Origin: Closterium sp. NIES-65
Lineage: Eukaryota; Streptophyta; Zygnematophyceae; Desmidiales; Closteriaceae
DNA: 64,000 nt
Direction: 5' to 3'
Assembly (NCBI GenBank): GCA_948144175.1
Contig: CANXME010002192.1
Coordinates: 930,001 to 994,000, forward strand
Part shown: positions 23,890 to 63,554 of the stretch, piece after piece
Layout: each line of letters opens with the position of its first letter
Position numbering within the stretch: position 1 is the stretch's first letter
The notes under the pieces: generated by a model
Databases searched by the model: none
Seen by the model: the letters and a program-made list of their open reading frames with translations, nothing else
What the model was told of the DNA's origin: nothing
Position numbers and translations under genes: made by a program

Positions 23890-24520
23890 GTGCTGCTGAG
23901 GGTGCTGAGACTGGGGGTGCTGAGCCTGGGAGTGCTGAGCCTGGGGGTGCTGAGCCTGGGGGTCCTGAGACTGGGGGTGCTGAGCCTGGGGGTGCTGGAG
24001 TGGGGGTGCTGAGCCTGGGGGTGCTGAGCTTGGGGGTGCTGTGCCTGGGGGTGCTGAGCTTGGGGATGCTGTGCCTGGGGGTGCTACACCTGGGGGTGCT
24101 GTGCCTGGGAGTGCTACACGTGGGGGTGCTGAGCCTGGGGGTGCTGAGCTTGGAGGTGCTACGCCTGGAGGTTCTCCGGTTGCTTCGTCTCTGCGGGAGC
24201 CACTCTCTCCACAGGAGCTGCGCGAGTGGTTTGCCCGGCGCTGGAGCCGTGCTGCTGGTGCTGGAGGTTCTTCAGCTACTGAGGGTGCTGCTGTCGCGGG
24301 TCCCGGAGGTGCTCGTACTGGGAGTACTGGAGCTGCTGGGCCTGCGGGTTCGACTGGAGCTGGTGCTGCTGAGGGTGTTGGCGCTGAGACTACCAATGGC
24401 GGTCCTGCTGGAGGTACTCCTGGTGCTGCTGGAGGTTTTGGAGCTACTAGAGGTGCTGCTGGAGCGGGTGCTCTCGCTGGGGGTACTGGTGCTGTCCCTG
24501 CTGTGTCTGGCGTCGCCACG
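23890..24520 (+). repeat. 15-bp repeat array in A3 pol (GGAEP linker)
   Basis: Tandem 15-bp GGGGGTGCTGAGCCT-like units occupy about 23900-24170. LSPQELREWF follows near 24205, then a Gly/Ala/Thr repeat to about 24500. Confidence 0.8.
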
Positions 24521-25199
24521 CGGCCTCGACCGTACTTCGTTCCACTCCTGCAGCAGGTTCTTGGTCTTCCACCTTCTACTGGGCCTCCTCCTTCCTTAGA
24601 GTGTCCACAGCCTGTCCCGTCACAGTTACAGTTGCAGCCTACCTCCCCTTTGCCTGCTCCTTCTCCCTACACTGGTCCTACTGGAGGTCTTGCTAAGCGT
24701 CGTGAGCCTGCGTCTCGCCCTACGTCGCCTGTCCGTCCAGCTCGCGCTAGTGGTTGTGGTTCGCGTCAGTGTCCTCCTCCTGTCCCTTGCACGCACCGGA
24801 TGTCTCTGTGTCCGTCCAGTGCTCCTCTGCGTGCCCCTTTGCCTTCTCCTCCTGAGTCCTCTCTTCCTGCTCTTGCCGACCCGGAGTCGGACTCTCTTCG
24901 TGCTGCCAGTCCTACTGTCACGCGTTTCCTGGCTACTGTCGTCACTGACCCTTCTTTCGAGTCCACTGCTGCGTCTGCCCTAGTTGCTGAGCTCGTCGAC
25001 TTTGCTGCTCGCTGTCGCCTAGACTATGCTGCTAGTCTTGGCGCTGAGTCTGAGTCTGTCTGTCCTCCGTCCGTCGGGGGTGAGTGTGCCCTTAGCACGG
25101 ACGTCCTTGAGGACAGGCAAGAGGAATTCCAGTGTCTGGCTGCTGCTTCACCTCATCTCGTGTCCGTACTGCTTACCCTTGAGGGAGACCCGGATGCAC

Positions 25200-25995
25200 T
25201 TGACATCCCGACTCCGCGCTCCTACGCGGAGGCGATAGAGGGTCCCTACTCCTCTCAGTGGCAGGCAGCTATGGACACAGAGATGGCTTCCTGGAAGTCC
25301 ACAGGCACCTACGTTGACGAAGTTCCCCCGCCTGGGGCGAACATCGTCAGTGGCATGTGGATCTTCAGAGTGAAGCGGCCGCCGGGTTCTCCGCCTGTCT
25401 TCAAGGCGCGTTACGTGGCTCGAGGCTTCAGTCAGCGGCAGGGAGTTGACTACTTTCAGACCTTCTCTCCCACCCCGAAGATGACCACTCTTCGGGTACT
25501 GCTGCACGTTGCTGCTCACCGTGACTACGAGCTGCACTCTCTTGACTTCAGCACAGCTTTCTTGCAGGGCAGCCTGCACGAGGAGATCTGGCTGCGCCGC
25601 CCACCTGGCTTCACTGGGTCGTTCCCTCCTAGTACCCAGTGGAGCCTCCGGCGTCCAGTTTACGGTCTCCGCCAGGCGCCACGTGAGTGGCACGACACAC
25701 TGAGGACTACACTTGCGGCTCTTGGGTTTGCTCCTTCTACTGCCGACCCGTCGCTGTTTCTACGCACCGACACCTCTCTGCCGCCGTTCTACATCCTCGT
25801 GTACGTCGACGACTCGGTCTTTGCCACAGCTGACACTGCTGGACTCGCCTGCGTGGACAGTTGCGGCTTGCGTACATGGCCTCTGAGGCCAACACTGCTG
25901 ATGTTTTCACCAAGGCACTTCCGCCTTGTGATCATCAGCGCTTCTGCACTCAGTTGGGTCTTGTCCCTGTCTTGCCTCACTTGCTCACCTCTTGA
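25200..25995 (+). pseudogene. A3 reverse transcriptase and RNase H remnant
   Basis: Reverse transcriptase motifs GMWIFRVKRPPGS, LDFSTAFLQG and a YVDD box near 25805 are present. Only a small RNase H piece is recognised before the 3' untranslated part. It belongs to a broken element. Confidence 0.8.
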
Positions 25996-26208
25996 CCTTG
26001 CTTGTACTGTTACATATATATATACCTGCTCTTGCTTGTCTAGCCTTTTATATATATATGTACTCCTGCATGTGAACTGGCCTTGTTGCCTTGTACTTGT
26101 GCTCGGAATGTGTGGTGATTTTGTGATCCACCCTGAGCTTTGCTTTGTTTTGCTTTGCTTGACTGGTCTTGTGACCCCCTGTTCTCCCCCACTTTGCCTA
26201 TGGGGGTG

Positions 26209-26340
26209 TGTCAGAACATTATAGCTTATGCTTTTGTGTAAGATGTAGTGGGGTATCCCATAGAGGGTACGACCCAATTAGGGTTAGTACTTGTACCCAC
26301 TTCATTCATAGTTCATTCATTTCTCGTTTCAGTTTTCTCA
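26209..26340 (+). repeat. 3' LTR of A3
   Basis: The repeat is 132 bp, starts TGTCAGAACATTATAGC and follows the tract CTATGGGGGTG. It is followed by the target duplication AGGCG at 26341-26345. Confidence 0.9.
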
Positions 26341-28738
26341 AGGCGTAGCAGAAAGAATGAACAGGACTCTCCAGAACCCCATGCGCAAGCTGCTACGAGG
26401 CATGCGACTACCCAACCACCAGTGGCCCAAAGCAATGGACCACGCTGTCATGCTGCACAACTTGCTCTCGTCATCATCGCTCCCGAACAACGGGTCACCG
26501 CACCTGATGTGGACAGGAAAACAGGGCAGCACAAAAATGTTAAGAGTTTTCGGCTGCATGGTACAGTACCGACCCCCATCTGCATGAGCTGGCCGATTTT
26601 CCCAACGCACACAGTGAGGACTACACCTGGGCATCGAAAGAAACTACAACGCAAGGAAAATTTTCGACGTCCACTCCAAGGAAACAGTAGCAGCACGTGA
26701 TGTCATTTTCTACGAATGACTCACCCTTCCGACGTATCTTGCCAACCTGGAAGAAGATCAGGACCCCACAGGTGGCTTCTGTGGTGACCGAGCCTTCGCC
26801 TCGGCAGCAGACGAAGCTGACTGGGACGAGCAGAACGTGGATGAAGCCTCGGAGGAAGCCGGACCTCTCCCTTACTGCTCCGTCGACGTCCCAATGGATG
26901 ACGAAAATCCTTGCGAAAGCGCCAACGCCGAAGTATTTCACCACTTCGCCGACAACGGTTACGTTACACCTGCAGAAGTCAACACCAACGAAGCAGAACG
27001 CATAGGGCCCAACTTCATACCTGACCCAGAAGCAGGTGACGAAGCAGCTTATCCCGCGGACACAACTCTCCCCCGCTACACACAGAGTGGCCTCCAGATA
27101 CTCGGCCTCGTCACTGCGGTCCACGGCACAGATATTCCTAAGGAGCCTGCCACGGTTCAGCAGGCTCTGGTGGGGGAGCATAGGGAAAAATGGCGTGAAG
27201 CCATGGACAGGGAACTGAAAGCACTGGAGGAACGCAACACCTGGAAAGTCGTTCCCATCGGCGTGGCACGAAACAAGACAGTACTCATCGGGAAATGGGT
27301 CTTCCGTGTGAAGACAAAGGCAGACGGCACCATCGACAAGTTTAAGGCGCGCTGGGTCGTACGCGGCTTCGACCAAGAGCACGGACGCGACTTCACCGAG
27401 ACATTCGCCCCGGTCAGCCGACACACCTCACTACGAATTCTCCTCGCGATCGCCGCCATGAAGAAGAAGAAACTGCGGCAAATCGACGTCGCCAACGCAT
27501 TCCTCTACGCACCTGCTGACGCCGAAATCTTTGTCGAACTTCCACACGGCTCCCACGGAGAGCCTAACCAAGTCTGTCAGCTGCTAAAATCCCTGTACGG
27601 CATCAAACAAGCTCCAAGGCTGTGGCAGCAGTATCTGCACGCAAGACTCATTCGCATTGGATTCCGCCAACTACCTCACGACCAGGGCATGTATCGGCTC
27701 ACAAAGGGCACCGACTACATCCTACTGATCGTCTACGTGGACGATTTGCTCTACATCGGCTCGACCGACAACGTCACCACCTAGTTTGAAGGGGAACTAT
27801 AGAAGGATCTCACGCTCACAGTCTCGTCCACTGTCACGCAGTATCTCGACCTCAACATCCAGGAAGAAGAAGGCGCGATCTACCTCAACGCCGCAAAATA
27901 CGCCGACACCATCGCCAAACGCTTCGCACTCACGCCGACCACCATCTCCACGCCATACCGCTACACGGCAGGAAATAACAAGGAAGGATCCGCTCCACTA
28001 AAGCCCGCCGGCATACGCGACTACCAGAGAAAGCTGGGATGCCTCCTCTTCGCATCTGTCACCTGCCGTCCGGACCTATCGTACTCCGCAAGTCAGCTCG
28101 CGACCTACCTCAAGATACCTGAAGCAGAACACATGGCGGAACTCGACCGCGCTCTCCACTACCTCGTCAGCACATCAACCGTCAGTCTAACCTACCACAA
28201 GAACGGGACTACGACACCTAAAATTATCGGCTACGTCGATGCCGATCACGCCGGCGACTCCGACAACAGACGCTCACGCACCGGCTACATCTATCGCCTC
28301 GAGCCTATTGGACCTATCTCCTGGCAATCGAGCAAGCAGGAGTTAATTGCTCTCTCCTCAGCTGAAGCTGAATATATCGCACTCTGCTCAGCCACCAAGG
28401 AAGGACTGTACCTTCGCGAACTTCTGGAGGAGGCGAAGCTGGCTAAGTTACCCAGCTTCTCCCTGTTCTGCGACAACCAGTCGGCAATTCGCATAGCCAA
28501 CAAAAACGGATTCGCGAACAGAACGAAGCATATCGCCCTGCTATATTTCTTCGTAAAGGACGAGATCGAGAAGGGGAGACTTGAGCTGACTTACTGTCCC
28601 ACGTCCGAGATGGCAGCTGGTTACTTGACCAAGAAGCTCGGGAAGCAGAAGTTCGAGTACTGCATGCTGCTGACTGGACAAAGCCACGTCACCAGCAGCG
28701 ACACTCTAGAAGCGAAGGGGAGTGTTGGAAACAATTGA
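26341..28738 (+). pseudogene. B1 integrase end, reverse transcriptase and RNase H
   Basis: B1 resumes with QGVAERMNRTLQNPM (end of the integrase core) and LPNNGSPHLMWTGK. After a spacer come reverse transcriptase motifs WKVVPIGVARNKT, FKARWVVRGF, IDVANAFLYAP and YVDDLLYIG near 27740. RNase H motifs are DADHAGDSDNRRSRTGY near 28240, SSAEAEYIAL near 28355 and CDNQSAIRIANK near 28470. It belongs to a broken element. Confidence 0.85.
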
Positions 28739-30398: not shown

Positions 30399-33300
30399 AT
30401 GCAGTCGTTGCGACCGCAGCAGCCGCACTCGGCGGCGGGAATGGCGGCCAAACCTCTCCTGATGGGCAACGACGTGCTCACCGGCGCGCAGGTGCGTTCA
30501 ACGGTCAGGCGCGTTCGAGCGCCAGGCCCGGAAACCCTAACTGCTGCTTCTTCGCGCGGAAATGGCCTGGCGGCGCGAAAAAGGGATCGTCTTCTCGCTC
30601 AAACCCTAACCCCAGCAGCCTCTATTTGTCGCGCATTTGGTAGCTTCCAGCAAATTCGGTCATTTTAGCTTTCCCCCAACCCTCCTTTCCTGACCTCTCG
30701 CCGTTTTCCATGCACCATCCCTCCCCCCCACTCCACCCGTCCCCCACTCCCTCTTTTGAGGCGCCGCAAAATTCAAGTATGTTGTCCGTGCCCATTTTTG
30801 AGACGCCTCAAAACCTATGCCCATGCACCGTTCCCCCACTCCCCACTGCCCCCGCTCCCACCTTCCCCCCGCAGGATTCCCAAACAGCGCCTGCGGCCGC
30901 CCTGCCCCATTCCATCCCATTCTCCTACCCCCCCACTTCCCCTCCTTTCCCCCAGAGGACCTCCGCCTGCGCCTGCGCGTGCGCCGGCTACAATCCCCCC
31001 TGGCTTCCCCCCTGCCCGCGTCGCCCAAGGACCCCATCCACATGGGCTGAGTGCGCGCCGCTCTGCCCTTTTCTCCTTCACTCCCCCATTCCCCATCCCA
31101 AATCCCGCATGTCCCCACTCCCCCCCTTTCCCCCACAGGACCCCCGTCTGCGCCTGCGCCTGCTGCAGTCCCTGCTCGCCTCCTGCCTGCCTGCCCGCCT
31201 CGCTCAAGGACCCAATCGATATGGGCAGGGTGCGGGCGGCCGTGAGGATGCTGCATCCGCCCTGTCGCATTCGATTTCATCCCACACTCCTCCACTTCCC
31301 ATTCACACCGCACAGGACCCCCGTCTGCGCATGCGCCTCCTCCAGTCCCTCCTGGCGTCCTTCCTGCCAGCCTCGCCCAAAGACCCGATCGACATGGGCA
31401 GGGTGCGAGCAGCAGACACACGTTGGGGTGCTGCAGGAGCAACACGTGCTGGCCGTGGAACCGGACTGGGCCGCCGTGGGGGGTGCTGCTCTGCGTCCAC
31501 CCTGCCCCATTCTCCTTCCTCCCCCCTCCCTCCCCTTCCTCTCCCCCAATTCTCCATTTGCACCGCACAGGACCCCCGCCTGCGCCTGCGCCTGCTGCAG
31601 TCCCTCCTGACCTCCTTCCTGCCCGCGTCACCAAAGGACCCGATCGACATGGGCAGGGTGCGCGCGGCCGTGGCAGTGCTGCGAGATCAACACGTGCTGG
31701 CCGTTGAACCGGACTGGGCGGCCGTTGGGAGTAATAATGACCCCAGGAGGCGGGCTGTAGACGCGTGGTGCAGCAGGGTGTTCGCGTTATTGGCATCTCC
31801 GCTGGTGGGTTCTTTCGTTGTGGTTGGTGGTGAGTGCTTGCATGAGGATTGGTTCCATTAGCAGGTGAGTGAGCACGGCACACAGCTTTCTCTGCGCTTT
31901 GAAGGAAAGCAAGCCAGTTAATCGCACGGCATCTTCGCTGGCGGCATGAAGGGCCGGTGAATTTGAAATTCAGGAAGTGGAGGAAGTGGTCGTGCGAATC
32001 TGAGGGTGTGACTGCCAATTTAATTCAATTTCTGTTAAGAATACTAGATCAAACGTATAAGCTTCCTCGAAAGGTGTTACGTCCTTGCCTCAAATTACCG
32101 CTCCTTCCTTAGCTCCTTGCTTTTCCTTATCTCTCCTTAGATCGAGTTTGAACTCAACCAGCTTTACCCTTCCCCCTCTCGTCTCTCCGGACTCTTCTCC
32201 TCCTCTCGCAGCCGGCGAATAGGTGGGCGGCATGTGTGCTGGCAGGTGCCACGTGTGCAGAGAGCACAGCTCAGCGCGTGATTGACACGTACGCCAAGTG
32301 GTGGGGGCGGCTAGCCGCCCTGCTGAAGGCGAATAAGACAAAAGGAGGCGGTGTGGGAGGCGAGAAGAGCACAAGACAGCAGCAAGAAGGGAAGGAGGAG
32401 GATGGGGAAGAGGAGGGGGAGGAGGGAGAGGAGGGGAAGGAGGGGAGAGGGAATGGGAGGGGAAAGGAGAAGGAGAAGGGGGGTGGGAAGGGCAAGGAGG
32501 CAATAGTACCAGATACCATGTTTGTGCGTGTTGCTGCTGCTGCTGCCCTTGCTGACCTTTTCTCGAGGTATGGTGTGGACCGTTAAGCTAGGTTGCCCGT
32601 GCACACACGCCCTCACGTGCGCAAAAATCCCCTCCCTCCCCCCCACCCCTTCTCCCCCCCTCCATCACATCCCCCACCCCCGCCCTTCCCCCTTCCCCCC
32701 ACGCACTCACATTTGCGCATGCATGTGCGTACACTCTCACGCACCCCACTTCAACCCATCCCATGACATCTATATAAACATAAACATGTGCAAACACACA
32801 CACATACTCACCATGCTAATGCGTGTGCTGCCTTTCCTCTCCCCTCGTGCCAGGCTGGCAACTTTGTCTCATGTGCAGAGCGTGCGCAAGGAGGCTGGCA
32901 CTCTGGCCGGCAAGCTTTGGCCGTTTCTTGCGGAGATGATGGGCAGCACCGAGAGCACACAAGCATGGGTGCGTGGCACACAGGGAATCAAAATAATATC
33001 TCTGCTTATTAAAAAATCACTCAGGATCACTCGATTCTCATTTACATGCATTCAGCCTCTACTCTCTGCCACTGGCAGAATCTGTTTGTTACTCTCTGCC
33101 ACTGGCAGAATCTGTTTGTTACTCTCTGCCAGTGGTTGGTGATGAATCTGATGGTTTTACTCTCACCTCTTTCCAGGCACACTTTTATTCCAAAGTGCTC
33201 TCAGTGCATTTCACCCTAAATTCGTTTTTGTTGCGTCTAGTCTATTGCATTGATCTCAGGAACGCTGTTTGTTTGCTTACATGTCTATGGCATGAGACTA

Positions 33301-36300
33301 CCAATATGTTTCAAGGCCTCTCCTTGCTTCGCCCACCCATTTTCTGCCATTCTCGTTCGCCTATCCATTCTCTGCCACGCCTCTCCGTCCCCTCCCTCCC
33401 TCCTTCCCTCCCTCCCTCCCTCCCTCCCTCCCTCCCTCCTTCCCTCCCTCCCTCCCTCCCTCCCTCCCTCCCTCCCTCCCTCGCACCCTCTCTGCGCGCC
33501 TCCTGTGCCCTCCCTCTCTGCCCTTCCTTCCCCCTCCTGCCAGAGCGTGTGCCTTTCGCTGCTCTCTCTGCTGCTTCGCTCCTTCCCCTCCAGCTTCAAG
33601 CACCATGTGCCAGCGGTATGTAGTCAGCTGGTAGTGCTTTAGGTTGTTAAAATCTTTGTCGCTACAGCCGCAGTATGTTCCCACAAGTTGTTGTTTTTTC
33701 TTCTTCTTCATCATTGATTCAATATCTAAATCCTATTATTGCACCGCTAGTACTTATATTTCTGTTCTCTCCTCTCCCACACACTATCCTCAGATGGAGG
33801 CTCTCCTGGTATCGAAGCTGTGCTCTCCCAATGCGCCCGCATCAATAGTCCATGTGAGTGTGGGCGGTTGTTGCGGGGATACACGATGACCTGTAGAGTC
33901 GACTCGTAGTTCTCAATCCCAATCCTCTGATTTTCCATGTGGGTATGGGTGATGCGCATGCGCGCGTGCGTGTGCATGTGTGTGTGTGTGTGTCGCCTAG
34001 TGCATGCCCCTTCATCCATCGTTCACATGTTGCGGGGACCCAAAATGACTTGCAGTAGTAGACTGTAAGGTCGGCTCATCATTACCCAACTTGTGGTATC
34101 GGACATCCAACTCATTTCAAGCAACATTCCCCCTTCCCCCACCCACTCCCCCACCACACCAGTCCTGCTGCAGCCTGCTCGTGCTGCTCCCCCGTGCCTG
34201 CCTCCGGTGACCCCTCCCTCTCGTCGGCCTTCATGCGCTGCCTGCTGCTGCTGCTGCTTTCTGAGATGCGACTCATATCAACCATCATTCCCGTATCCCT
34301 CGTCCCTGGCCCCCACCACCAATCCCCACCAGTCCTGCTGCAGCCTGCTCGTGCTGCTTCCCCGTGCCTCCGGGGACCCCGCCCTCTGGTCGGCCTTCAT
34401 GCGCCGCCTGCCGCTGCTGTCCCCTGAGATCCAACGCATGTCTACCGTTTCTTTTCTAACCCACCCTTTCCACTCGCCAGTCCTGCTGCAGCCTGCTCGT
34501 GCTGCTTCCCCGTGCCTCCGGGGACCCCGCCCTCTGGTCGGCCTTCATGCGCCGCCTGCTGCTCTCCACGCACGCCGACCTCGATACTCTGCTCTCGGGC
34601 TTCGAGGATGGTAAGCAGCGTGCTGCTGCCCGGTGGGTGAAAGAGTGAGCACCAGTGTTACCATGCATGGCCCACCAGTGTTACCATGCATGGCCCACCA
34701 GTGTTACCATGCATGGCCCACCAGTGTTACCATGCATGGCCCACCAGTGTTACCATGCATGGCCCACCAGTGTTACCATGCATGGCCCACCAGTGTTACC
34801 ATGCATGGCCCACCAGTGTTACCATGCATGGCCCACCAGTGTTACCATGCATGGCCCACCAGTGTTACCATGCATGGCCCACCAGTGTTACCATGCATGG
34901 CCCACCAGTGTTACCATGCATGGCCCACCAGTGACCCTTCGCTCTGGTCCACTTTATGCGCCGCCTGCTGCTCTCCACGCACGCGGACCTTGACACTCTG
35001 CTCTCAGGATTTGAGGATGGTAAGGGGCGTGGATTTGAGGATGGTAAGGGGCGTGGATTTGAGGATGGTAAGGGGCGTGGATTTGAGTGCTGCCACTTGT
35101 GCTGCAAGTGGTGCTTTCAGTTGCTGAGTGAAGCTTGAGCCCTTGCTCTGGTCTCTCTGGTCTCTCTGGTCTCTCTGGTCTCTCTGTTCTCTCTGTTCTC
35201 TCTGGTCTCTCTGGTCTCTCTGGTCTCTCTGGTCTCTCTGGTCTCTACGAGCTGACGAAGGTGTGAGCTGGCATAGGTGTGAGCTGGCATAGGTGTGAGC
35301 TGGCGAAGGTGTGCGAGCTGGTGCATGTGGGTGGGTGCTGCTGCCATGTGTGCTGGTGTTGGTATCTCTCTCCCGCATTCGGTTTGAGTTTCTCCCATGC
35401 CTTCCAAGAACGAGTTACCTGTTGGATCCAGGTCGAAACTGCTTTGCTATGCTGCCATGTGTGCTTTGCTATGCTGCCATGTGTGCTTTGCTATGCTGCC
35501 ATGTGTGCTTTGCTATGCTGCCATGTGTGCTTTGCTATGCTGCCATGTGTGCTTTGCTATGCTGCCATGTGTGCTGGTGTTGGTATCTCTGCTGAGTAAG
35601 GCGTGAGATATATTGGAGTGACTTTTGAGAATTCTCTCCAATATAGGTAAGGCGTGAGATATATTGGAGTGACTTTTGAGAATTCTCTCCAATATAGGTA
35701 AGGCGTGAGGCCCTCCCTCCCTCCCTCCCTCCCTCCCTCCCAACGCTCCTTCGCTCCAGGAATGCAGTGGCCCTGCTGCCGGTGCCAGTGGTTCTTGAGA
35801 AATTTCAACACAATCGTCTCCTCATCACCCCCCCCCGCCTTTCGTCCCTGAATCCACACTGCAGAGCCTGTGCGATCCAAGGCCCTGGCAACTCTCCTGC
35901 ACTCCAAGAGCGCAGCTTTGCCGGTGCCTCTGGTCCCCGAGCATGCACACTGGATCGCTGCTAACTGCTCCAAGGAGGACGAGCAGCAGCAGGAATCAAG
36001 CGGGCAGGGGCAGCAGGGGCGGAGCAAGCAAGGAGGGCAGACGTCAATGTCAAACGCAAATGGCAGCGGGAGCGGCAGCGGCAGCGGCAGCAGCAGCAGC
36101 GGTGGAGATCCCGAGGCGGTGTTCCGGCGGGTGGTGCCACGGCTGCACGCGCTGCTGCTCACGTGCCAGCTGGCGATCTCTCAGGGGTTCTCTGCTCCGG
36201 TGGGTTGGTTAATTCTGAAGGTTCTCGAAAGGGGTTGTAAGTGGTTGGGGGAGTGCAGATGTGGTGGTATGGGTGCCTTGTGCCCATGCACCCTGTGTTC

Positions 36301-39300
36301 CCCTTCCCCTTTTGTTCCCCTTCCCCTTTTGTTCCCCTTCCCCTTTTGTGCCCGTTCCCCTTTTGTTCCCCTTCCCCTTTTGTGCCCCTTCCCCTTTTGT
36401 TCCCCTTCCCCTTTTGTTCCCCTTCCCCTTTTGTGCCCCTTCCCCTTTTGTTCCCCTTCCCCTTTTGTTCCCCTTCCCCTTTTGTGCCCGTTCCCCTTTT
36501 GTTCCCCTTCCCCTTTTGTGCCCCTTCCCCTTTTGTTCCCCTTCCCCTTTTGTTCCCCTTCCCCTTTTGTTCCCCTTCCCCTTTTGTGCCCCTTCCTCTT
36601 TTGTGCTCCATACCATCTTGTTCTCCTGCCACTTGTGCTCGTTGCCTCTACCCTACCTCTCTCCCCTGCCTCTCCTGCGTACCTCTCGCCCCCTCTCCTG
36701 GCCCCTCCCTCCTGCCATGACCCCTCCCTCCTGCCATGACCCCTCCCTCCTGCCATGACCCCTCCCTCCTGCCATGACCCCTCCCTCCTGCCATGGCCCC
36801 TCCATAATCCTCGAGCCTCATCACTTGTTCCGATTCCCCTCCCTCCCTCCCCTTTCCCCCCCTCCTGCCTCCCAGGTCCCAGCGCCCCTCTCCGCCCTGC
36901 TGGCTCTCGCCAACCGCCTTGTATCAGCCGATGCTGTAATTAGACTCACGCAAGTGGAGGGCACAGGGATGGTCATCCCTCTCTCTCTCCTCGCTTCTGG
37001 AGGGAGAGGAGGGAGAGGAGGAGGGGGAGGGGGAGGGGGAGGAGGGGATGGTTTTGATGCGGGGGAAGGTCCGGACGGCATGGACTCGGCGTTTTCTGCC
37101 GCCCGCCAGCTGGCGCTGTGCGTGGAGCTGCCAGCGCTGCAGTGTGCGGGGCTAAGGATGATGCTGGCCGCGCTGCAGGGCGTGAGGAAGTGAGTGTGAA
37201 GGGATGGAGAGAGTGAGAACATGAGTGTGAAGGGTTGAATGGGATGGAGTGAGAAAGTGGGTGTGGTGTGTTGGTTAGAGCTGAAAATTGAGTGCTGATG
37301 AAGTGATAATATGTTGTGCTAAGGAAGTGAGAAAAAACAGTGAATTTTCGAAATTGTACCATGCACCTTATACATTTCCATCCTCTCCCCCTTCCCCTTC
37401 CCCCACTTCCTTCCCCTCGTGCCTCCTTCCTCCGTTTTCCTCCGTTTTTCTCAGCCACATCCTGCCCCATGCAGCCACCATCTCACACACGCTTGTATCA
37501 GCCTTTCGCCGAGCAGCAGCAGCGGGGGACGACGCCACAGCGCTGCCATTCAAGGTGCTGCTCTACCGCACGGCCACACAGTACCTCTATGCGCTGGGCG
37601 CCGGTAAGTCCCATCTAAGGTTATTTTCGTACATGGCAGCTGCAGCAGCAAGGGGGGATGACGCCACAGCACTGCCCTTCAAGGCACTTCTCTATTGCAC
37701 GGCCACGCAATACCTATATGCCCTGGGTGCAGGTAAGCCCTTTCAGGTTTATTTTCTTACATGGCAGCTGCAGGGGGGGAGCAGACGACGCCACAGCACT
37801 GCCCTTCAAGGCGCTGCTCTACCTCACGGCCACACAGTACCTCTATGCGCTGGGCGCGGGTGAGTGTTAAGATGTGTCGGACCTGGGCGCTACTGACTCG
37901 CCTCCTGCAATCAACACTGCCCTTCAAGGCGCTGCTCTACCGCACCACAAGCATGGCCACACAGTGTGTACTTCATGTGCACCATGCGCTGGTGCGTTGC
38001 ATATTTTTTTGAGTCGACTCAAAAAAAGGCGCTGCTCTACCGCACACCACAAGCATGGCCACACAGTGTGTACTTCATGTGCACCATGCGCTGGTGCGTT
38101 GCATATTTTTTTGAGTCGACTCAAAAAAAGGCGCTGCTCTACCGCACACCACAAGCATGGCCACACAGTGTGTCCTTCATGTGCAGCATGCGCTGGTGCG
38201 TTGCATATTTTTTTGAGTCGACTCAAAAAAAGGCGCTGCTCTACCGCACCACAAGCATAGCATGGCCACACAGTGTGTCCCTTATGTGCACCATGCGCTG
38301 GTGCGTTGCTTGCAGTGCCTCTTCTGTCGCACTGCCACCCACCTGTCTGTTTGTACCGTTCCGTACCCCCCAACAGCGCCCTTCTAGGTACTGCCCTACA
38401 GCACGGCCACGCTGCTACAATGTTCCTCTATGCCTGAGCCTCGTCCTTCTAGGTCCTTCCTGATTCGTTGCATCCTGCAGTCAGCTACCCCACCTCGTCC
38501 CATCTCCTCCTTCCCCCTCCCCCCTTCCGCCCGTTACAGGCATGATGACACAGATCGCCCCCATAGTGGTGGGGCGGGGCATCACAGACCTCAAGGAGAC
38601 CGTGGTCACGTCCCCCATACCTATCCCTTTCCCTTGCCCTTTCCTCTCCGCTCTATCCCCTCCCACCTACCACACCCTCCCCCTCCACCAGGCATGATGA
38701 CGCAGATCGCCCCAATAGTGGTGGGGCGGGGCATCACAGACCTCAAGCAGGCCGTGCCGGCACTCTTCTCCCCAACCAACCAGCGTTCGCCAGGTGGCAG
38801 CATGGCATTCGACGCCGCTCCCGGCGCGGCAGCAGGCAGCGGGAAGCTGGGCGGAGCGGGCAGCGGAGGGGGAAGTGCAGGGGGAGGGGCGGGGGGAGGT
38901 GCAACTGGGGCAGGTGTTATCTCGGGCAGTCGGTGCCTGCAAACCGTTGATCTGCAGATCGCCATTCTGGAGGCTCTTGAGGCGCTGCTGGTGGCGGTGA
39001 GTGTGAGGGGAAGGGGAAGAGTGAGAAGGGGTGTGGTGGGGGAGTGTGTGGTGGTGACTTTGTTCGAGGGGGGAGAGTGTGAGGGGGCGTGAGTGGAACA
39101 GGGAAAGTGTGGAGGGGGGGTGTGAGAGTGGGAGAGGGTGTGGGGCTGGGCGGGAGTGTGGGGAGGGGCAGAGTATGTGTGAGAAGGGGTTGAGGTTGCA
39201 GGGGGGATAGAGTGTGCGTGCCTCGATCCGGTGGGTTCAGTTCAGTGTGCGTCCATCCATGCAGCTGCCTCTCCATCCATCCATCCCCCTTTCTCTTTCC

Positions 39301-42006
39301 ACTCTCAGTGTGGCCGCTTGCTACCTTGTGGGTCACTCACATGCACAGAGCTCACTTCTGTACTTCCCGACGTTGCAGGGAGTTTTTGAGAATTCTTTAC
39401 ATAGCTCACATTGCTACCCTGCACAGAGCTCACTTCTGTACTTCCCACTCACTCTCCTCTTTGTCAACTCCCCTGCACTCTCCTCTCAGGGTGGCCCTCT
39501 GTTACCGGAGCACTGGCGCATGGAGGTCGACGCAGCACTCACCTGCATGAAACTCACATGCATTTTGTTCTCCCCTCCCCTCCCTTCCCGTCCCCTCTCC
39601 TCATCTTCCCACCAATCCCAGGGCGGCCCTCTGTTACCGGAGCACTGGCGCATGGAGGTCGACGCAGCACTCACCTGCACCGCTGCCATTGCCCTCGGCA
39701 CCGGCGGTTACGACTCCAATTTCAACTCCACTCACGGTTACAACTCCGGTTACAGCTCCCCCAGCACACACGCGCACATGCCCTGGACGCCTGGGTCGGA
39801 CCGTGCAATCAGATCGCTCCAGCTAGCAGCATCGCGTGCGCTCCTAGCCTCCCTCCTAGCCCCATGCAAATACCGCCCACCGTACCTCGGGCAAGCACTC
39901 AGAATCTTCCGGCAGGGGAGGCAACAGCTGGGGACGGAGGTAGCTGCGCTCTGCTCCTTTGCTCTGCTGGCTCTCGAGCCGGTGTTGCATCCCAGGTGTC
40001 TCCCCCATTCGTCCTCCATCCACCCGCTCTCGTCGCTGCTCGTCCCGTCGCAACCCCCGCCGAACCTGCAGCAGCAGCAGATGCGGCAGCAGGAGCAATT
40101 GCAACAGGAGCATTTACAGCAGCAGCAGATTTTGGGCGGCTCACCCGCCCCTTCTGCCAGCCGGCCGGCCAGTTCCAACAGCCTGCTGCCGCCTGCCGCC
40201 CAGACAACTCTCGCCGCCCCTGCTGCCGCCCAGCTGCCGGTCCCTGGCTCTATGGCCATGAATCTCTCTGCTGCTGTGGGAGGGGGTGCTGCAGGGGGGA
40301 TGGGCGGAGGTATGGTGGGGGCAATGGGTGGGGGCATGGGCGGAGGGATGGGCGGAGGTATGGTGGGGGCAATGGGTGGGGGCATGGGCGGGGGGATGGG
40401 GGATGGAGGAGCAGGGGGAGGAGGTGGAGTGGGGGCGTATGGGGGGATGCTTGGAGCAGCTGGGGGAGGTGGTGGAGGGTTCACAGGGGGAATGGGCGGG
40501 GGGATGGGTGGAGGGATGGGCGGAGGAATGGGCGGGGGGATGGGAAGAGGGATGGGCGGAGGAATGGGTGGGGGGATGGGAGGGGGGATGGAGGGCGGAA
40601 TGGGTGGTGGTGCCACAGGGCTTGGAGTGCTGGGTGGCGATGTTTGGCCGTTAGCGGACCTGTGGACGGAAGTGGACGGGTACGGCACATTCGGGCACGA
40701 CCTGATGGAGATCGGGGGAGGCGCATCTGGTGCAGGTGGAACTGGTGGGGCCGGGGCAGGTGGAACTGGTGCAGGCGTGACTGGCATGGTCACCACAGGG
40801 GGACAGGCAGGTACGGGAGAAGCTGGGGGGGCATCTGGCGGGTTTGGGTCCATGGAGGGACAAGCAGCAGCAGCAGCAGCCATGCCTATGGATACTGATG
40901 GGGCTGCTGGTCCTGTTGCCGCTCCTGCCATGCCCATGGCCCCTCCTCCTGCGCCTCCTCCTCCTGCCCCCAAGGATGTGCGGGCTGCAGCTGCTACGGC
41001 CACTGCTGCTGCTGCTAATACTGCTGCTGCACCACCAGAGGAAGCAGCAGCAGGAGCAGCAGGAGCGGGTGCAGCACCTGCGGTTTCATCACAGAGTGAC
41101 AAAGGAAGTGGGGGGCGAGGGAGAGGAGCGAACCAACGAGGGAAAGGGGCAGCAGCAGGAGCAGGAGGAGGGGGCGGAACAGGGGGAGAAGGTGGAGCAG
41201 AGAAGGGAGGGAAGCGTAGAGATGTGGGGAAGGAGATTTTTATAAAGACGCTCGCGCCGGCTGTGGCCCGATTCCTTAGTGCCAATGACCCCTCCTCCAT
41301 CTCTGCCTCTGCTGGTGCTTCCCCCTCCGTGTCTGCTGCTCCTGCTGGCAGCAGTGGGTCTGCTGGTAAGAGCAGGAGAGGGGCTGCTAAAAACGACCAA
41401 GGCACTGCTGCTGCTGCTGGTGCTGCCGCTGCTGCCAGTGGTGGGGCTGGTGGTGGGTCTACAGGCGGATCAGGGTCAGGGAAGCAGGAGAATGAACAGG
41501 CTCAGACTGGAGGAGGTTCGGCGCTCGCAGGTTCGGCACCTGCAGGTTCGCATGGATACGGGGCAAGGAAGGTGGTAACCACTGTGGAGGAGGCGGATGC
41601 TGCTGGGCTGGAGGCTGCTAGGAGGGCGAGGGAGTCCCGAACCAAGGCTGCTGCCATGGCTCGCATGCTGCAGGAGTCTGGCTACCTGGGGACTGGAGGC
41701 TCGGGAACTCCAGGTTCGGGTGCTGCAGGTCTGGGGACTGCGGGTTCGGGTTTGGGCTCCGGTAAGGTTGGAGGTTCGGGACAAGAAGGGCAAGCTGGTT
41801 CTGCAGCTGGTGTTGGGGGAAATGCTGCTGCTGCTGGTGCTACTGCTGCTGCTGCTTCTGGTAGTGGTGGTGGTTGTGGTGGTGGTGGTGGTGGGAGAGG
41901 GGCATCTGGTGGTGCTGCAACTTCAGTTGCTCCATCAACTGGAGCTGATTCTGACTCTGATGGCCCGTTGCCTGAAATTGTAGTTGAGGATGACCTTGAG
42001 TTCTGA
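30399..42006 (+). CDS. PELP1/RIX1-like 60S ribosome maturation protein (12 exons)
   Basis: Twelve exons with matching phases and GT/AG sites: 30399-30491, 31571-31804, 32212-32567, 32854-32968, 33544-33615, 33794-33853, 34481-34610, 35865-36199, 36876-37189, 37455-37603, 38692-38996, 39622-42006, giving about 1515 residues. The order of conserved segments follows plant PELP1 as I know it: DPRLRLRLLQSLL with VDAW (exon 2), ATCAES and ADLFSR (exon 3), AGKLWPFL (exon 4), LLLRSFPSS (exon 5), SKLCSPNAP (exon 6), LPRASGDPALW (exon 7), CVELPALQCAGLRMM (exon 9), HILPHAA (exon 10), MMTQIAPIVV (exon 11), and the acidic end DSDGPLPEIVVEDDLEF. In known systems PELP1/Rix1 works with TEX10/Ipi1 and WDR18/Ipi3 in ITS2 processing and pre-60S maturation in the nucleolus. 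Exon 3 has a Glu/Lys/Gly tract; exon 12 a Gly/Met- and Ala/Gly-rich tail, longer than usual. Exon 2, 3 and 12 boundaries could shift. Confidence 0.82.
30874..31570 (+). repeat. Tandem upstream copies of PELP1 exon 2 with acceptor sites
   Basis: Units like the start of exon 2 (GACCCCCGCCTGCGCCTG...) begin after an AG at 31316, 31139 and 30958. A poorer piece begins at 30874. The true exon starts at 31571. The units at 31139 and 31316 lie 432 and 255 bases upstream of it, both multiples of three, with the frame open throughout. The unit at 30958 is out of phase. The copies differ in sequence, so they are old duplications, not assembly echoes. Confidence 0.85.
33061..33134 (+). repeat. 30-bp tandem repeat in PELP1 intron 4
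   Basis: Two identical units starting ACTCTCTGCCACTGGCAG (33061-33090 and 33091-33120) and a partial third. The unit holds a short inverted repeat, CTGCCA/TGGCAG. Confidence 0.9.
33386..33483 (+). repeat. (CCCT)n/(CCTT)n microsatellite in PELP1 intron 4
   Basis: About 98 bp of pyrimidine 4-bp repeat lies 60 bp before the exon 5 acceptor. It would serve as a very long polypyrimidine tract. Confidence 0.9.
34163..34480 (+). repeat. Two upstream copies of PELP1 exon 7 start
   Basis: TCCTGCTGCAGCCTGCTCGT begins after a CCAG acceptor at 34163, 34333 and 34481. Only the third runs on to a donor (GAGGATG then GTAAGC at 34611). The first two decay after about 90-100 bp. Their spacing (170 and 148 bp) is not a multiple of three. 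Confidence 0.85.
34651..34926 (+). repeat. 23-bp minisatellite, 12 copies, PELP1 intron 7
   Basis: Twelve head-to-tail, apparently identical copies of a 23-bp unit starting ACCAGTGTTACCATGCATGG. Because 23 is not a multiple of three, all three frames stay open and mimic a repeat protein. It contains the palindrome CCATGCATGG. Confidence 0.95.
34927..35087 (+). repeat. Fourth partial exon 7 copy and 24-bp donor-site repeat
   Basis: After the minisatellite comes a diverged copy of the second half of exon 7 ending TTTGAGGATG at 35019, with a GTAAGG donor. The last 24 bp, GTAAGGGGCG followed by TGGATTTGAGGATG, are repeated at 35020, 35044 and partly at 35068. This gives a ladder of donor sites 24 bp apart. 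Confidence 0.85.
35146..35310 (+). repeat. 9-bp and 16-bp tandem repeats, PELP1 intron 7
   Basis: GGTCTCTCT (9 bp) repeats from about 35146 to 35246, with two variants reading GTTCTCTCT. A 16-bp unit, GTGTGAGCTGGCATAG, repeats at about 35268-35310. Confidence 0.85.
35441..35572 (+). repeat. 22-bp minisatellite, 6 copies, PELP1 intron 7
   Basis: Six apparently identical copies of GCTTTGCTATGCTGCCATGT plus GT, 22 bp each, all on the same strand with no spacers. Confidence 0.95.
35596..35741 (+). repeat. 51-bp direct repeat with hairpin arms, then (CCCT)n
   Basis: Two 51-bp units begin at 35596 and 35647 with GTAAGGCGTGAG, and a partial third begins at 35698. Each unit carries inverted arms TATATTGGAG and CTCCAATATA. 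A CCCT run fills about 35709-35741. Confidence 0.9.
36297..36606 (+). repeat. 17-bp minisatellite, PELP1 intron 8
   Basis: About 18 copies of a 17-bp unit close to CCCCTTCCCCTTTTGTT, with a GTGCC variant mixed in. It is strictly pyrimidine-rich on this strand. Long frames on both strands come from the repeat. Confidence 0.95.
36702..36796 (+). repeat. 19-bp tandem repeat, PELP1 intron 8
   Basis: Five copies of CCCCTCCCTCCTGCCATGA, the last slightly changed, lie shortly before the exon 9 acceptor. Confidence 0.9.
37604..37860 (+). repeat. Two downstream copies of PELP1 exon 10 with donor sites
   Basis: Exon 10 ends at 37603 (GGCGCCG, then GTAAGT). Two near-copies of its last 100 bp follow. 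One ends GGTGCAG with donor GTAAGC at 37733, the other ends with donor GTGAGT at 37860. The first copy ends 129 bp after the normal exon end, a multiple of three, with the frame open. The second is out of phase. Confidence 0.85.
37917..38300 (+). repeat. 102-bp tandem repeat of exon 10 fragment with 24-bp palindrome
   Basis: Four units carry a piece of exon 10 (GGCGCTGCTCTACCGCAC) and ATGCGCTGGTGCGTTGC. Three of the joins hold the perfect palindrome TTTTTTTGAGTCGACTC plus seven A, at 38004, 38106 and 38208, exactly 102 bp apart. Confidence 0.9.
38540..38691 (+). repeat. Upstream copy of PELP1 exon 11 start
   Basis: GCATGATGACACAGATCGCC follows a TTACAG acceptor at 38540 and matches the start of exon 11 (38692) for about 59 bp before diverging. 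The spacing of 152 bp is out of phase, so use of this acceptor would change the frame unless spliced out. Confidence 0.8.
39490..39621 (+). repeat. Upstream copy of PELP1 exon 12 start, in phase
   Basis: The first 60 bases or so of exon 12 (GGPLLPEHWRMEVDAALTC) occur also at 39490 after a CTCTCAG acceptor, almost unchanged. The two starts are 132 bp apart, and the frame is open between them, so either acceptor gives a valid protein. Confidence 0.85.
40278..40610 (+). repeat. Coding GGMGGGM repeat in PELP1 exon 12
   Basis: Imperfect repeats of GGGATGGGCGG-type units encode Gly-Gly-Met-Gly repeats of about 100 residues. Other family members as I know them do not have this, and it is likely a disordered region. 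Confidence 0.85.
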
Positions 42007-46010: not shown

Positions 46011-46269
46011 GCACGAATGCGATGATCCAAAATCTTCCAGGGTTGGAGTGTCAGATTTGCGACGGGCCAGACACTTGGCGCAATGTTAGGTCGAGCGACG
46101 TCGGACGGCTACGGAGCCACGTAGTGACGAAGCAAACTGACTTGGAAGGCGTCGTGGATCTTCCAGTCGTCCGGTAGCAAAAGTTTCGCTGTGACCGGGG
46201 TCAGCATCCGAATGATGCAGAAGGGTCCCACGTATCGGGGACGCAGTTTAGCAGGTTGGGCCAGTCAAA

Positions 46270-47750
46270 GATTTTCCGTGTCCAGAAGGACCATCTGCCC
46301 GTCGCGGAAGTGTAAGTTCCGTCGATGTCTGTCAGCATAGCGGCTGGCAACGGTGTTAGCCTTCCAAATAAATTCCGCTGCTTTGTCGCGGGCTTCTTGG
46401 AGTTCCGAAACGAATTGCTGCGACCGTGGTACCGGGTTGTCGGGGGTCGTTGAAGAGGGTAACACGGGGTCTATCCCGTGATTGAGGTAGAACGGCGACT
46501 GATTAGTCGCCGTAGACGGTGCATTGTTGTACGCAAACTCGAGCATGGGGAGTGAATCCTCCCACTTGGTGATGCCGGGGCAGTTCGTGCGAATCAACTG
46601 CTCCATCGTCTGGTTTGTCCTCTCTGTCTGTCCGTCGGTTTGCGGGTGGTATGACGACGAAAACTGCAGGCGGGTTCCGTACTGGGTCCACGTTTCCTGC
46701 CAGAACTTCGACGTGAATTTCGGATCCCGATCGCTGATGATCGCCGAAGGTAACCCGTGTAGGCGTACGACGGTGGAGATGGAGCTTCGCTGTTTCTTTG
46801 GCTGTGATCGTCGTGCGGCATGGTGTGAAGTGCACCATTTTCATTAATCGGTCCACGACGACCAGTACCGAGTCGTTGCCACTTGCGCCAGCTGGCAGCC
46901 CGGTGACGTAGTCTATTGTCACATGTTGCCACGACCGTTCGGGTGGCTCGAGAGGTTGCAGCAATCCAGCTGGTCGTTGGCGTGATGACTTCATTGCCTG
47001 GCAGGTCGGGCAGGCGGACACGTAGTGCTGCACGTCCGACGCCATGTCGAGCCAGTAGTAATTCTGCTGCAGCAGCTTCAATGTTTTGTCGACGCCGAAA
47101 TGCCCGGAAAGATTGGAGTCGTGGACTTCCTGGGTCAGCAATTCTCGTAAGGGTCGGTAGGAAGGTACTCAAACTCGGTTTGTACCGACTTTTAGGTAAT
47201 AGCTCCCATGCGCCGTGGTGACCCGTAGGTGTTGGTTGGTCATGAAAAACCTGTCAGTCCTGTAGCCGTGCTTGAACAGTCCTGCCAATAAAGGGTTAGA
47301 ATGGGCGATCAGTACTGCTGCGGTTTGCAGTGATGGGCGGGTCAGGGCGTCGGCGATGTTGTTGGCGCCCTTTTTGTACGTGATGGTGTAGCTGAAGTTT
47401 GACTCGAGGTAGTCGAGCCACTGGATTTGTCGCGGGTTGAGTTGTGGTTGGCTGCGCATGTACTCTCATGACTTGTGGTCTGTCCTGATCGTGACGTCGG
47501 CTCCCGTGAGATAACAGCGCCAGGTACGAAACGCATGCATGATGGCGAGCATTTCCTTATCGTGTACAGGGTAGTTGCGCTCGGGCGGCTGCATTTTTCT
47601 TGATTCGTACGCGATGGGTTGCAGCCCGTTACCGAAATCCTGTAGGAGGACAGCGCCGACGGCAAAATCGCTGGCGTCCGTCACGACTTCGAACGGCTGA
47701 GATGGATCTTCCAGCCGAAGCACCGGGGGTGAACTCAAAATTTTCTTCAG
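46270..47750 (-). pseudogene. C RNase H and integrase region
   Basis: RNase H motifs are VVTDASDFAVGAVL near 47690 and the TDHKS motif near 47470. The integrase zinc region shows GHFGVDKTL and CPTCQAMK near 47000-47110. The core shows VTIDYVTGLP near 46900 and ends with FAYNNAPSTATNQSPFYL near 46520. It belongs to a broken element. Confidence 0.8.
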
Positions 47751-47759
47751 CTCTTCGAA

Positions 47760-49075
47760 GGCCAGCTGCTCTCTCTCCCCCCAACAAAATTGCACGCCCT
47801 CATGCAGAAGATCGGTTAACGGCCTGGTTACCCCTGCCATATTCGGTACAAAACGGCGGACGTAGTTAACGAAGCCGAGGAAACTCTGCAACTCTGTGAT
47901 GTTCGTGGGCGGCTTCCACCCCGAAATCGCTGCTACTTTGCGAGGGTCAATTTTAATGCCTTCCCCTGAAACCACGTGCCCCAGGAACTTCAGCTCTGAC
48001 TGTAAGAACTCACACTTAGAGCCCTTAGTAATCAGCCGGTTCTGCTCCAAGCGCCGGAACACCTCCTCTAAGTCCTGTAAATGCTGTTCCCGAGTCTTGC
48101 TGTACACCAGGATGTCGTGCAGGTAAACAATAACTTTTTTTGTCCAGCATGTCCTGAAACACCCCATTCATGGTGAGCTGGAAGGTCGAGGGTGCGTTCG
48201 TCAGTCCAAACGGCATCACGGAATATTTGGAACTGCCGTAGCGGGTGCGAAATGCAGTCTTTGGGCAGTCGTCGGCGAACACGCGAATTTGATGGTAGCC
48301 ACCTCGCAAACCGATTTTCGAGAAGAAGCGAGCCCCGCGAAGCTGGTTCAGCAGGTCGTCCGCTCGTGGGATAGGGTAACGCGACTTGATTGTGACCCGA
48401 TTCAATGCTCGATAGTCGATGCACATGCGTAGGCCTCCGTCCTTTTTTGGCGTGAACAGTATCGGGGCGGCGTAGTGTGACGTGCTCAGCCGGATAAAAC
48501 CCTTCGAAAACAGATAGTCCAGCTGTTTCTGCAACTCGTCGAGCTCTGGTTGGTTGAGCCGCCACTATGACCAAACAGTTGGTTTTGCGCCTGGCTCCAG
48601 CTCGATCCTGTGGTCTTCTGGTCGCTGAGGTGGCAGCCCGTCAGGCAGGTCATCCGCGAAAATTTCGGGATACCTCCGAATTATGCTCGCCACGTCGTCT
48701 GGGACAGCAGCGCAGAGCGTGTCAATGTCGGCGATTTTCTCGGACGCCACCACTTCGTACAGCTGTACGGCGTAGCCCTGCGCTCCCGGTTTGATCGCCC
48801 TTTTCATCGTTATTGCGTTGACACGTATTGTCATCGGCTTCGGCTCTGCCCATTTCGGAAGGGTCACGCGCCCCTTGTTGCATAGCACCGTGATCGCCCC
48901 CGTCGTCCAGTCGATCGTCGGATTAAAACGCTGCAGCCAATCTCGTCCCAGCAGCACATCGCAACCGTCCAGCGTCGTCGCCAGCATGCGCATTGAAAAC
49001 CCGAAATCGTCGCCAGACTTCATCCGAATTTGTCGGACCTCGTCCTTGATCGCCAGCGGTGTCCCGTCCACCAGT
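47760..49075 (-). pseudogene. C protease and reverse transcriptase region
   Basis: The protease-like part has LLGRDWLQRFNPTIDW near 48920. Reverse transcriptase motifs are [16 protein letters not shown] near 48440, [12 protein letters not shown] near 48200 and a YLHDILVYS box near 48115. They are ordinary Ty3/gypsy sequences. It belongs to a broken element. Confidence 0.85.
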
Positions 49076-49369
49076 CGCGCGTCAATTTCGGGCAGACACC
49101 TGTCCAGCTTGACTCCGATTCTTTTGGCCGTTGCCGGGTTAACGAGACTGTGGCTCGCCCACTGTCAACGAAAAGATTTTTTTTTTTGCCCGTTAACCCT
49201 ACCCACGACCAGCACAGGGTGATCCACGTGTTCATCCACCTTATTCGTCCGGTTGCGGTCGATAGCCCGTATCGGTACCACTACTCGGTGTGGATGTTGA
49301 TTGCCGGGCGACGGGGTCTCATCAGTAGGTGGCTCGACTGCTACTGACTCGTCTCTTTTTTCGACCCCT

Positions 49370-50681
49370 CTCCGTCGTTCCTGTTTCCCTGTTTCAGCTT
49401 CGGGCAGTCCTTCCTCCAGCGGCCCCGTTGGTTGCAATTGAAGCACGTGTTAGGTCCACGTCTCGGTGCATCCACCCCGTTGATTGTGGGCTGGCGCGGC
49501 GGTCCACGAAATTGAGTGCCCTCCCGGGAACTCATTCTCGCCCATTGCATCAGCGCATCCGTTGATTCAGCCACCTGGACGGCATCGAGGAAATCACGTG
49601 GCCTCGCCCGTCGCACCTCATACTGTACTTCGTACTTGAGGCCTGCGACGTATCGGTCGAGTCGATCCGCATCACTCATGTCGTCCACCTGGTCAGCCAA
49701 ATTGCAGAATGTTGCCGTGTAATCTTGGATCGACGCCACCTGCTTCCGGGTGCGCAGCTTCATGCGAGCAGAATCCGAGGCGGATACATGCTCGAATCTG
49801 GTTCACAGCGCGGCGCCACAATCCGTCCATGTGCGTACCGTGGCCACTCCGAAGATTGAAGTTGCTCGTTGCATGACAGTTGTCCAGGTCCCGTCGTTCG
49901 CACGTGACATCCCTGCCGGAGTCCCCTCTGTCTGAAGAGTCCGCTTCCACCACTCCAACGCCGGCCCTCGTAACAGTGACACTGCAAAGTTAATGGGAGT
50001 AGCATCGTCAGCAATTTGCGCAGCATTGATTAACACCTCCACACCGAACAACCATGCCGACACAGTGACGATTTTGTCGCTGGGGTTGAACGGGGGCGGG
50101 TTCGTCGGCTTTATCTTAACATTTGTTGAGATTGTTGCTGCTGCATGCATCGGGGGCGCCACCGAAGCCATTACCGGGGTTGTCGCTGTTGCCTGTCGTG
50201 GCGTAGTCTGCGACTGTTGCCTCGGTGCCGCTTGTGCCTGTTGCTGCGGTTGTGGCTGTTGCTCCTGCATCCCTCGTGCATGTTGCATCCGTGCCGCCTA
50301 CTCATCTTCAACGTCCAGCGAGTCCTGTAGCTCGCTAAGGGCCTCATCGTTAGGCGCGAAACTGCTACTTGCTTCATCCACGGCGGGCGACTCCTGACGC
50401 GCTTCACCTCGCGTCTGGCGTAGCTCGGCGTTTTCCGCTTTCAGGCGATCCATCTCTGCAGACATGGTCTGCAAGTTGGCTTGCATCGCCCGAAACTGTT
50501 GCATGAACTCGTTGAACTCCGCCTGTTCCATGCTTCGCAAGCTTCTACAAACGGGCAGCGGGTTAACAACGTTTTTTATGGTTTTGATGAAGGCGCAAAC
50601 GCTATTAGTCGGAGCGAGATAATCGTATCTATCTCTCAGCCGACCGCTTTGCAGCCCACCAAACCTATCGCACCCTTGCAC
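49370..50681 (-). pseudogene. C gag region
   Basis: The N-terminal part carries a coiled-coil-like FNEFMQQFRAMQANLQTM string. A Gln/Ala-rich stretch, the capsid-like part (VSAWLFGVEVLINAAQ, ALEWWKRTL) and a CFNCNQRGRWRKDC zinc knuckle near 49440 follow. It belongs to a broken element. Confidence 0.8.
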
Positions 50682-58666: not shown

Positions 58667-58874
58667 CTTTACTTGTACTGTCACATATATATACCTGCTC
58701 TTGCTTGTCTAGCTTTATATATATATGTGTGTACTACTGCATGTGAACTGGCCTTGTGGCCTTGCTCTTGTGCTCGGACTGTGTGGTGACTTTGTGATCC
58801 ACCCTGAGCTTTGCTTTGCTTTGCTTGACTGGTCTTGTGACCCCTTGTTCTCCCCCACTTTGCCTATGGGGGTG

Positions 58875-63492: not shown

Positions 63493-63554
63493 GTCTTCTT
63501 GTATTGAGTGTTAAAAGGAAAACAACTTTAAAAACTCTAACTGCTCTCATACCA

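Follow-up and report, generated by a model that had tools for sequence, protein, structure and literature searches.

Why should the exons of a conserved gene be accompanied by extra copies of their own ends, and did the process that made those copies act on the intron-exon borders themselves? The question is raised by a PELP1-like gene of Closterium sp. NIES-65, which lies in a window of 64,000 nucleotides (contig CANXME010002192.1, positions 930,001 to 994,000), the whole stretch of DNA that was analysed. An original prediction, made from the letters of the window, had described tandem copies of the starts or ends of exons 2, 7, 10, 11 and 12, each including its splice site, and had read them as the product of a local tandem duplication process acting on intron-exon borders in one conserved single-copy gene, and as a possible source of new exons.

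The PELP1-like gene and its exon-edge copies

The gene (30399-42006, plus strand) is composed of 12 exons joined across 11 GT-AG introns into a single open frame of 1515 codons. The first 849 residues of its product match Pfam RIX1 (PF08167; E=4.7e-18), and the score of 66 bits against a curated cut-off of 27.4 places it in the RIX1/PELP1 family. A search of the 874-Mb assembly (874,075,685 bases in 2400 contigs) with the PELP1 protein, from which low-complexity stretches had been removed, returned 19 matches, all 19 at this single locus; no second PELP1 locus was found in the assembly, where the gene is present as one assembled copy only. It is also the sole host gene recognised in the window, in which 20 selected open frames were scanned for domains. 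Seven of these frames match domains of Copia-type elements, and five, one of them below cut-off, match other retrotransposon domains that we take to be Gypsy-type from their make-up; retrotransposon frames flank the gene on both sides (4244-5677, 10756-12444, 23984-27781, 46268-49802 and 53258-63510). The published NIES-65 genome report gives a size of 876 Mb, a mean intron of 485 bp and many duplicated genes in haploid cells. The exons of the PELP1-like gene and the copies found beside them are as follows.

30399-30491, 31571-31804, 32212-32567, 32854-32968, 33544-33615 and 33794-33853, plus strand: exons 1 to 6 of the RIX1/PELP1-like gene
34481-34610, 35865-36199, 36876-37189, 37455-37603, 38692-38996 and 39622-42006, plus strand: exons 7 to 12 of the RIX1/PELP1-like gene
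30958-31061, plus strand: copy of the exon 2 start (alignment 30970-31061, 82.6% identity; in-frame stop TGA)
31139-31244, plus strand: copy of the exon 2 start (84.9% identity; CACAG just before)
31316-31484, plus strand: copy of the exon 2 start (82.2% identity; CACAG just before)
34163-34249, plus strand: copy of the exon 7 start (89.7% identity; intron flank homologous)
34333-34415, plus strand: copy of the exon 7 start (98.8% identity; intron flank homologous)
34925-35019, plus strand: copy of the exon 7 end (83.3% identity; GTAAGG next; flank homology not detectable)
37642-37730, plus strand: copy of the exon 10 end with donor region (83.1% identity; intron flank homologous)
37764-37857, plus strand: second copy of the exon 10 end (88.3% identity; intron flank homologous)
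37917-37945, plus strand: internal fragment of exon 10 without a splice site (93.1% identity over 29 nt)
37943-38248, plus strand: three 102-bp tandem units with a piece of exon 10 and the palindrome TTTTTTTGAGTCGACTCAAAAAAA
38540-38604, plus strand: copy of the exon 11 start (93.8% identity; intron-flank homology not detectable)
39490-39547, plus strand: copy of the exon 12 start (98.3% identity; intron-flank homology not detectable)

Self-comparison of the region revealed direct repeats at all five of the exons named in the prediction, and the exon-edge copies are thereby confirmed. Ten extra copies, 82-99% identical to their own exons, reach an exon edge. When the splice context was read directly, all seven start copies were found to follow an AG and all three end copies to precede a GT; for the first exon 2 copy, the start at 30958 and the AG at 30956-30957 lie outside the alignment, which begins at 30970. 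Exon 2 bears three copies upstream, exon 7 two upstream and one downstream, exon 10 two downstream, and exons 11 and 12 one upstream each. The statement that the duplicated piece always includes the splice site holds for these ten copies and fails for the exon 10 fragment, which reaches no edge and adjoins the 102-bp array, as it does for 21 of the 70 copies in the main survey set described below; no supported copy was found at 30874, where the pattern had been said to begin. An assembly artefact is unlikely, since the PELP1 copies are themselves diverged and the repeats of two chaperonin genes are found again in a second contig.

A separate observation concerns a family of short palindromes, TTTTGAG-NNNN-CTCAAAA with a varying centre, which occurs in the window at 30796-30813, at 38004-38027 and in two repeats of the latter; with at most one mismatch allowed, the window holds five matches, compared to none in 100 shuffles. 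The family is also found at the loci L050, L051, L054, L062 and L066. At L050:1166, L054:2947, L062:893 and L066:2939, a direct repeat, perfect or partial, begins about 29-34 bp before the palindrome and resumes directly behind it. The palindrome TTTTTTGAGAATTCTCAAAAAA at L062:863-945 lies within a spare exon end and has a 30-bp direct repeat on either side, and L061, a near-identical assembled copy of L062, has no TTTTTTGAGAATTCTCAAAAAA and a single 30-bp copy; the L062 palindrome has the appearance of a recent insertion whose target duplication would be unusually long.

Exon-edge copies in other genes

When the genome was searched for kinesins, chaperonins, tRNA synthetases and phosphorylases, doubled partial matches were also encountered at exon edges. 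A first survey covered 25 merged regions (95,242 bp) with 63 HMM exon hits, taken from kinesin and chaperonin searches with 135 and 93 matches and limited to one assembled copy per gene; a second added four further regions (27.3 kb) with 27 exon hits from searches with 52 and 71 matches. For genes other than PELP1, a simple score rather than transcripts served to place the splice sites, and four HMM hits in the main set and two in the added set were dropped as being extra copies themselves. In the main set, which is copy-rich, has long introns and comprises 48 exons including the 12 of PELP1, at least one copy accompanies 30 exons (PELP1 contributing 5 of its 12), and the same is true of 11 of the 27 exons in the added set. 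Exons with copies thus number 41 of 75 with PELP1 and 36 of 63 without it, shares that are biased upward because the regions are not random but surround the best family matches; C1673, the extended regions, C431 and C1413 were chosen because doubled hits had already been seen there. The survey of other genes that the original prediction had recommended returned the same pattern in kinesin, chaperonin, phosphorylase and tRNA-synthetase genes, and the pattern is not confined to the PELP1-like gene.

The arrangement of the copies is strikingly regular. With a threshold of at least 45 bits, the 63 HMM exon hits of the first survey yielded 70 rows in direct orientation and, as a chance control, a single inverted one; copies that are direct, head-to-tail and close together bear the mark of local tandem duplication. 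The main set, with PELP1, holds 70 copies: 24, all of them upstream, reach the exon start; 25, all of them downstream, reach the exon end; the other 21 reach neither. In the added set, 10 rows reach a start and 12 an end, again without exception on the side expected, and three rows reach no edge. Every one of the 71 edge-touching rows (49 main and 22 added, 11 of them from one array region) is thus found on the intron side. None of the 95 copy rows of the two sets has both exon edges, and at the level of sequence the suggestion that the copies are a source of new exons does not appear to be borne out.

Nine regions are copy-poor (C1975, C1988, C202, C965, C822, C2092, C1394, C1103 and C326; 23 exon hits), with 0 of 31 edges covered and a single exon with a copy, in C1103. 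These regions were split off post hoc, after splice sites and copies had been seen, and their inclusion brings the total to 42 of 98 exons with copies. The measurable introns between adjoining hits are nine of 75-201 bp in the copy-poor regions compared to 24 of 178-1409 bp among the remaining regions. The mean third-position GC of the copy-poor kinesin and chaperonin genes is 0.70, against 0.81 elsewhere. These short-intron genes possibly represent another gene class or contaminant sequence. At C511:712945-713361 and C1052:556971-557362, pairs of kinesin exon hits that cover the same part of the domain lie on opposite strands within about 100 bp, and represent either head-to-head genes or copies in inverted orientation. 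Literature searches for exon-edge copying or similar patterns listed no account of a genome of this kind, which is not to claim its absence from print.

Origin of the copies and their position at exon borders

By local alignment, the intron flank is homologous in 27 of the 49 edge copies of the main set, falls between classes in three and is not detectably related in 19, a flank being called homologous when it scores better than at least 98% of mismatched controls; in an anchored global alignment, the copy flanks are near the controls. The start-to-start distance is 105-330 bp in 39 of the 49. A kinesin gene with two assembled copies offers a direct view of one such event, with a 138-bp duplication (L018:2044-2181) that is missing from L019. 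This unit, consisting of intron tail, AG and exon start (the exon read by eye), is 99% identical to its neighbour, and the rest of the L018/L019 alignment differs by 0.57%. A chaperonin gene that is likewise present as two assembled copies has otherwise the same repeat structure in each, which makes these repeats older than the gene duplicates and assembly noise an unlikely source of them. The related flanks and the 138-bp difference support the local tandem duplication that had been proposed, and the main cause of the copies is most likely undirected tandem duplication of 0.1-0.3 kb. Exon-limited copying, for example from spliced RNA, was considered on account of the anchored alignment and dropped, as 27 of 49 flanks are homologous locally and the L018 unit holds intron.

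It may still be asked whether duplication is aimed at borders, perhaps because splice sites or co-transcriptional structure make them break or re-replicate. With short-period arrays masked, duplications of all identities cover 37.2% of exon edges and 7.3% of intron bases, a fivefold difference that such targeting would explain. The values are 23.1% and 5.4% at identities of at least 85%, and 15.7% and 4.5% at 90% or above. At 95% or above, however, the excess vanishes, with 4 of 121 edges (3.3%) covered compared to 2.9% of intron bases, although this recent sample is small and the case against targeting rests on those four edge events. Before masking, coverage had been 3 of 84 edges and 7.8% of intron bases for identities of 95% or above, and 49% of edges compared to 34% of intron bases at all identities. 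As the polarity of the copies is also explicable by viability alone, targeted border duplication is improbable and was rejected on the recent events, and the claim that the process acts on intron-exon borders is not supported. The edge excess, which arises only when older copies are admitted, therefore looks like persistence rather than targeting.

The account that we consider probable is one of undirected tandem duplication and a splicing filter, with exchange between functional and spare ends in addition. Long introns would undergo frequent tandem duplication of short stretches, with breakpoints that take no account of splice sites. Within an exon, such a duplication would damage the protein and be lost; within an intron, it would be neutral and soon unrecognisable. 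A duplication across a splice junction would leave the exon intact and place a spare exon end on its intron side, where it would presumably be removed with the intron by splicing and hence tolerated. Such a junction-spanning copy would be noticed longest, its partner being a constrained exon, and its tolerance on the intron side would give rise to the strict order of starts upstream and ends downstream. Functional and spare ends would also have exchanged sequence, by whichever route. That spare ends are spliced out, that selection acts as the filter and that break repair is the source are all points that we infer. A spare exon end can seed an array, as in the phosphorylase exon of C1413, which has 11 copies of its end alongside, nine of them 121 bp apart; this array (L085:6121-7600) is built of the exon end and donor, and the last two of its 11 copies differ in spacing or sequence.

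Plant work with paired nicks has reportedly yielded small tandem duplications. DNA-break repair is a reported source of such duplications (PMC8355091), which can provide head-to-tail copies like those seen here without splice-site targeting; the likeness is one of arrangement.

Three further systems invite comparison. Ma, Lan and Niu (2016; PMC4974935) describe an intron in the potato RdRp gene that was made by tandem duplication over an intron-exon boundary. As here, the intron tail, acceptor and exon start were duplicated at the DNA level and the splice signals were carried along; a cryptic donor in the potato copy then produced a new intron with added coding sequence, as documented by RNA reads in one gene, whereas in Closterium the copies are numerous, spread over many genes and not taken to have made a new intron. 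Intron gain by AGGT duplication similarly involves tandem duplication near splice-like sequence. In that model, however, an exonic AGGT segment is duplicated to give a new intron, whereas existing junctions are duplicated here and the spare end falls in the old intron; with all 71 edge copies on the intron side of existing junctions, the Closterium pattern would not appear to be of the AGGT type. The duplicated exons of Dscam-type genes are whole exons with both splice sites. Although such mutually exclusive exons, as portrayed in PMC3236188, are likewise tandem copies within one gene, the absence of any two-edged row in Closterium sets its copies apart from them.

Divergence of the spare ends and proposed exchange with functional exons

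The copies have a more protein-like appearance than would be expected of dead sequence. Decay of a spare end by itself should leave roughly equal differences at the three codon positions. Across 61 copies, 551 differences from the functional exon are divided among third (365), first (105) and second (81) codon positions; the third-position share is 0.617-0.709 by bootstrap over 14 genes, and the bias is present in 12 of the 14. For changes of the copy's own, the neutral share would be at most 0.41, even with G:C sites mutating five times faster. The observed share is the same by flank class (related flanks 0.65, unrelated 0.69). Flanks could be aligned in 35 of 63 pairs, and there positions 1 and 2 differ by 5.2%, position 3 by 19.4% and the flanks by about 25%, a value that local alignment flatters; under neutral decay, we would expect about 12% or more at positions 1 and 2. 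The codon counts omit the regular repeats of the C1413 array, one pair without differences and C957, which has a stop in the assumed frame. The third-position excess thus renders duplication and decay incomplete without exchange. Extra-specific differences (third 103, first 34, second 28) were not used as proof, since a functional-exon change shared by a younger copy gets miscounted.

Sequence seems to have passed between the functional ends and the spare ones. Third-position differences are clustered, with 433 runs compared to 503.1 under permutation (sd 12.9; 0 of 2000 permutations as low), and four-fold sites alone are also patchy (258 runs against 292.8; p=0.0013); no clear trend was found for an even rise or fall of divergence from the splice junction. 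In one chaperonin exon, a block of synonymous codons is common to three spare ends and missing in the functional exon and one young copy. The functional phosphorylase exon of C1413, beside its 121-bp array, is a mosaic: the first 33 nt of the copied part hold all six differences from the array units, and the last 42 nt and a 46-nt piece of intron are identical to them. A farther-off copy bears the functional version of the 33 nt at most sites.

The spare ends nevertheless look free of constraint at present, yet carry differences made under constraint. Among the SNPs between second assembled copies that fall in spare ends, 6 of 8 are at positions 1 or 2 and 2 of 8 at position 3, a share that differs from the 66% of older differences (about 0.02, hand binomial); SNP density is 0.195% in spare ends and 0.324% in other non-exon bases. 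A net frameshift is found in 18 of 62 copies, and an in-frame TAG was read by eye in the L018 copies. Neutral-looking SNPs, frameshifts and the third-position excess together favour exchange over splicing use or plain decay, and the leading idea is exchange among tandem copies and with functional alleles, whether from the population or from related lineages.

The alternative that survives best, and that we hold as a serious if tentative possibility, is that spare ends derive from diverged functional alleles or lineages brought together in hybrid crosses: an exon break would be repaired from the exon end and some intron of the other version and then end-joined, with the old end remaining. This would account for a third-position divergence close to that of the flanks, for the patchiness at third positions and four-fold sites, for the several versions of one exon end in tandem at C1052 and for copies that look neutral now. 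It would, however, lead one to expect a diverged second gene set, and none was seen, the listed chaperonin hits forming by eye 11 loci of near-identical copies (among 87 of 166 candidates scored); copy identities are also spread rather than peaked. A more speculative reading makes introns both archive and donor of exon ends, with functional tips repeatedly replaced by other versions of the coding sequence, which would come from tandem copies, from diverged alleles or from hybrid partners, and with old tips, which keep their splice sites and flanks, able to return to use by recombination.

Gene conversion between functional exon and spare end could on its own maintain their similarity, and both the C1413 mosaic and the patchy differences speak for it, but conversion alone should, as we reason, give at most about a 2:1 excess at third positions, where about 3.9:1 (365 against a mean of 93) is observed, and we think it unlikely. 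The least likely reading is that spare ends would serve as alternative splice sites or exons kept by protein-level selection, for although the third-position bias, the GT kept in 21 of 21 end copies aligning to the exon end, the AG kept in 18 of 21 start copies aligning to the exon start and an in-frame stop in only 1 of 30 ungapped copies would all suit such use, the frameshifts, the lack of any row with both edges (hence of a cassette exon by its own copied sites), the position and density of the SNPs and the in-frame TAG in L018 argue against it.

Duplication of splice borders is a known route to a new intron, and in Closterium many stages of the process are visible at once: about half of the surveyed exons in long-intron genes have copies (the regions being partly picked), and one copy is present in only one of two gene copies. 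Such a genome makes it possible to measure how often the mutation arises, how splicing filters it and what becomes of the copies later. The spare AG and GT ends next to true exons are also a likely source of false exon calls by gene finders. While the main cause is probably ordinary, the unexplained coding-like signature merits genome-wide study. Should that divergence prove genome-wide, it would need exchange between exons and their intron copies, which lies outside the usual picture of intron evolution; and if introns do act as an archive of exon ends, coding sequence near introns would turn over by exchange, and not only by point mutation, throughout the genome.
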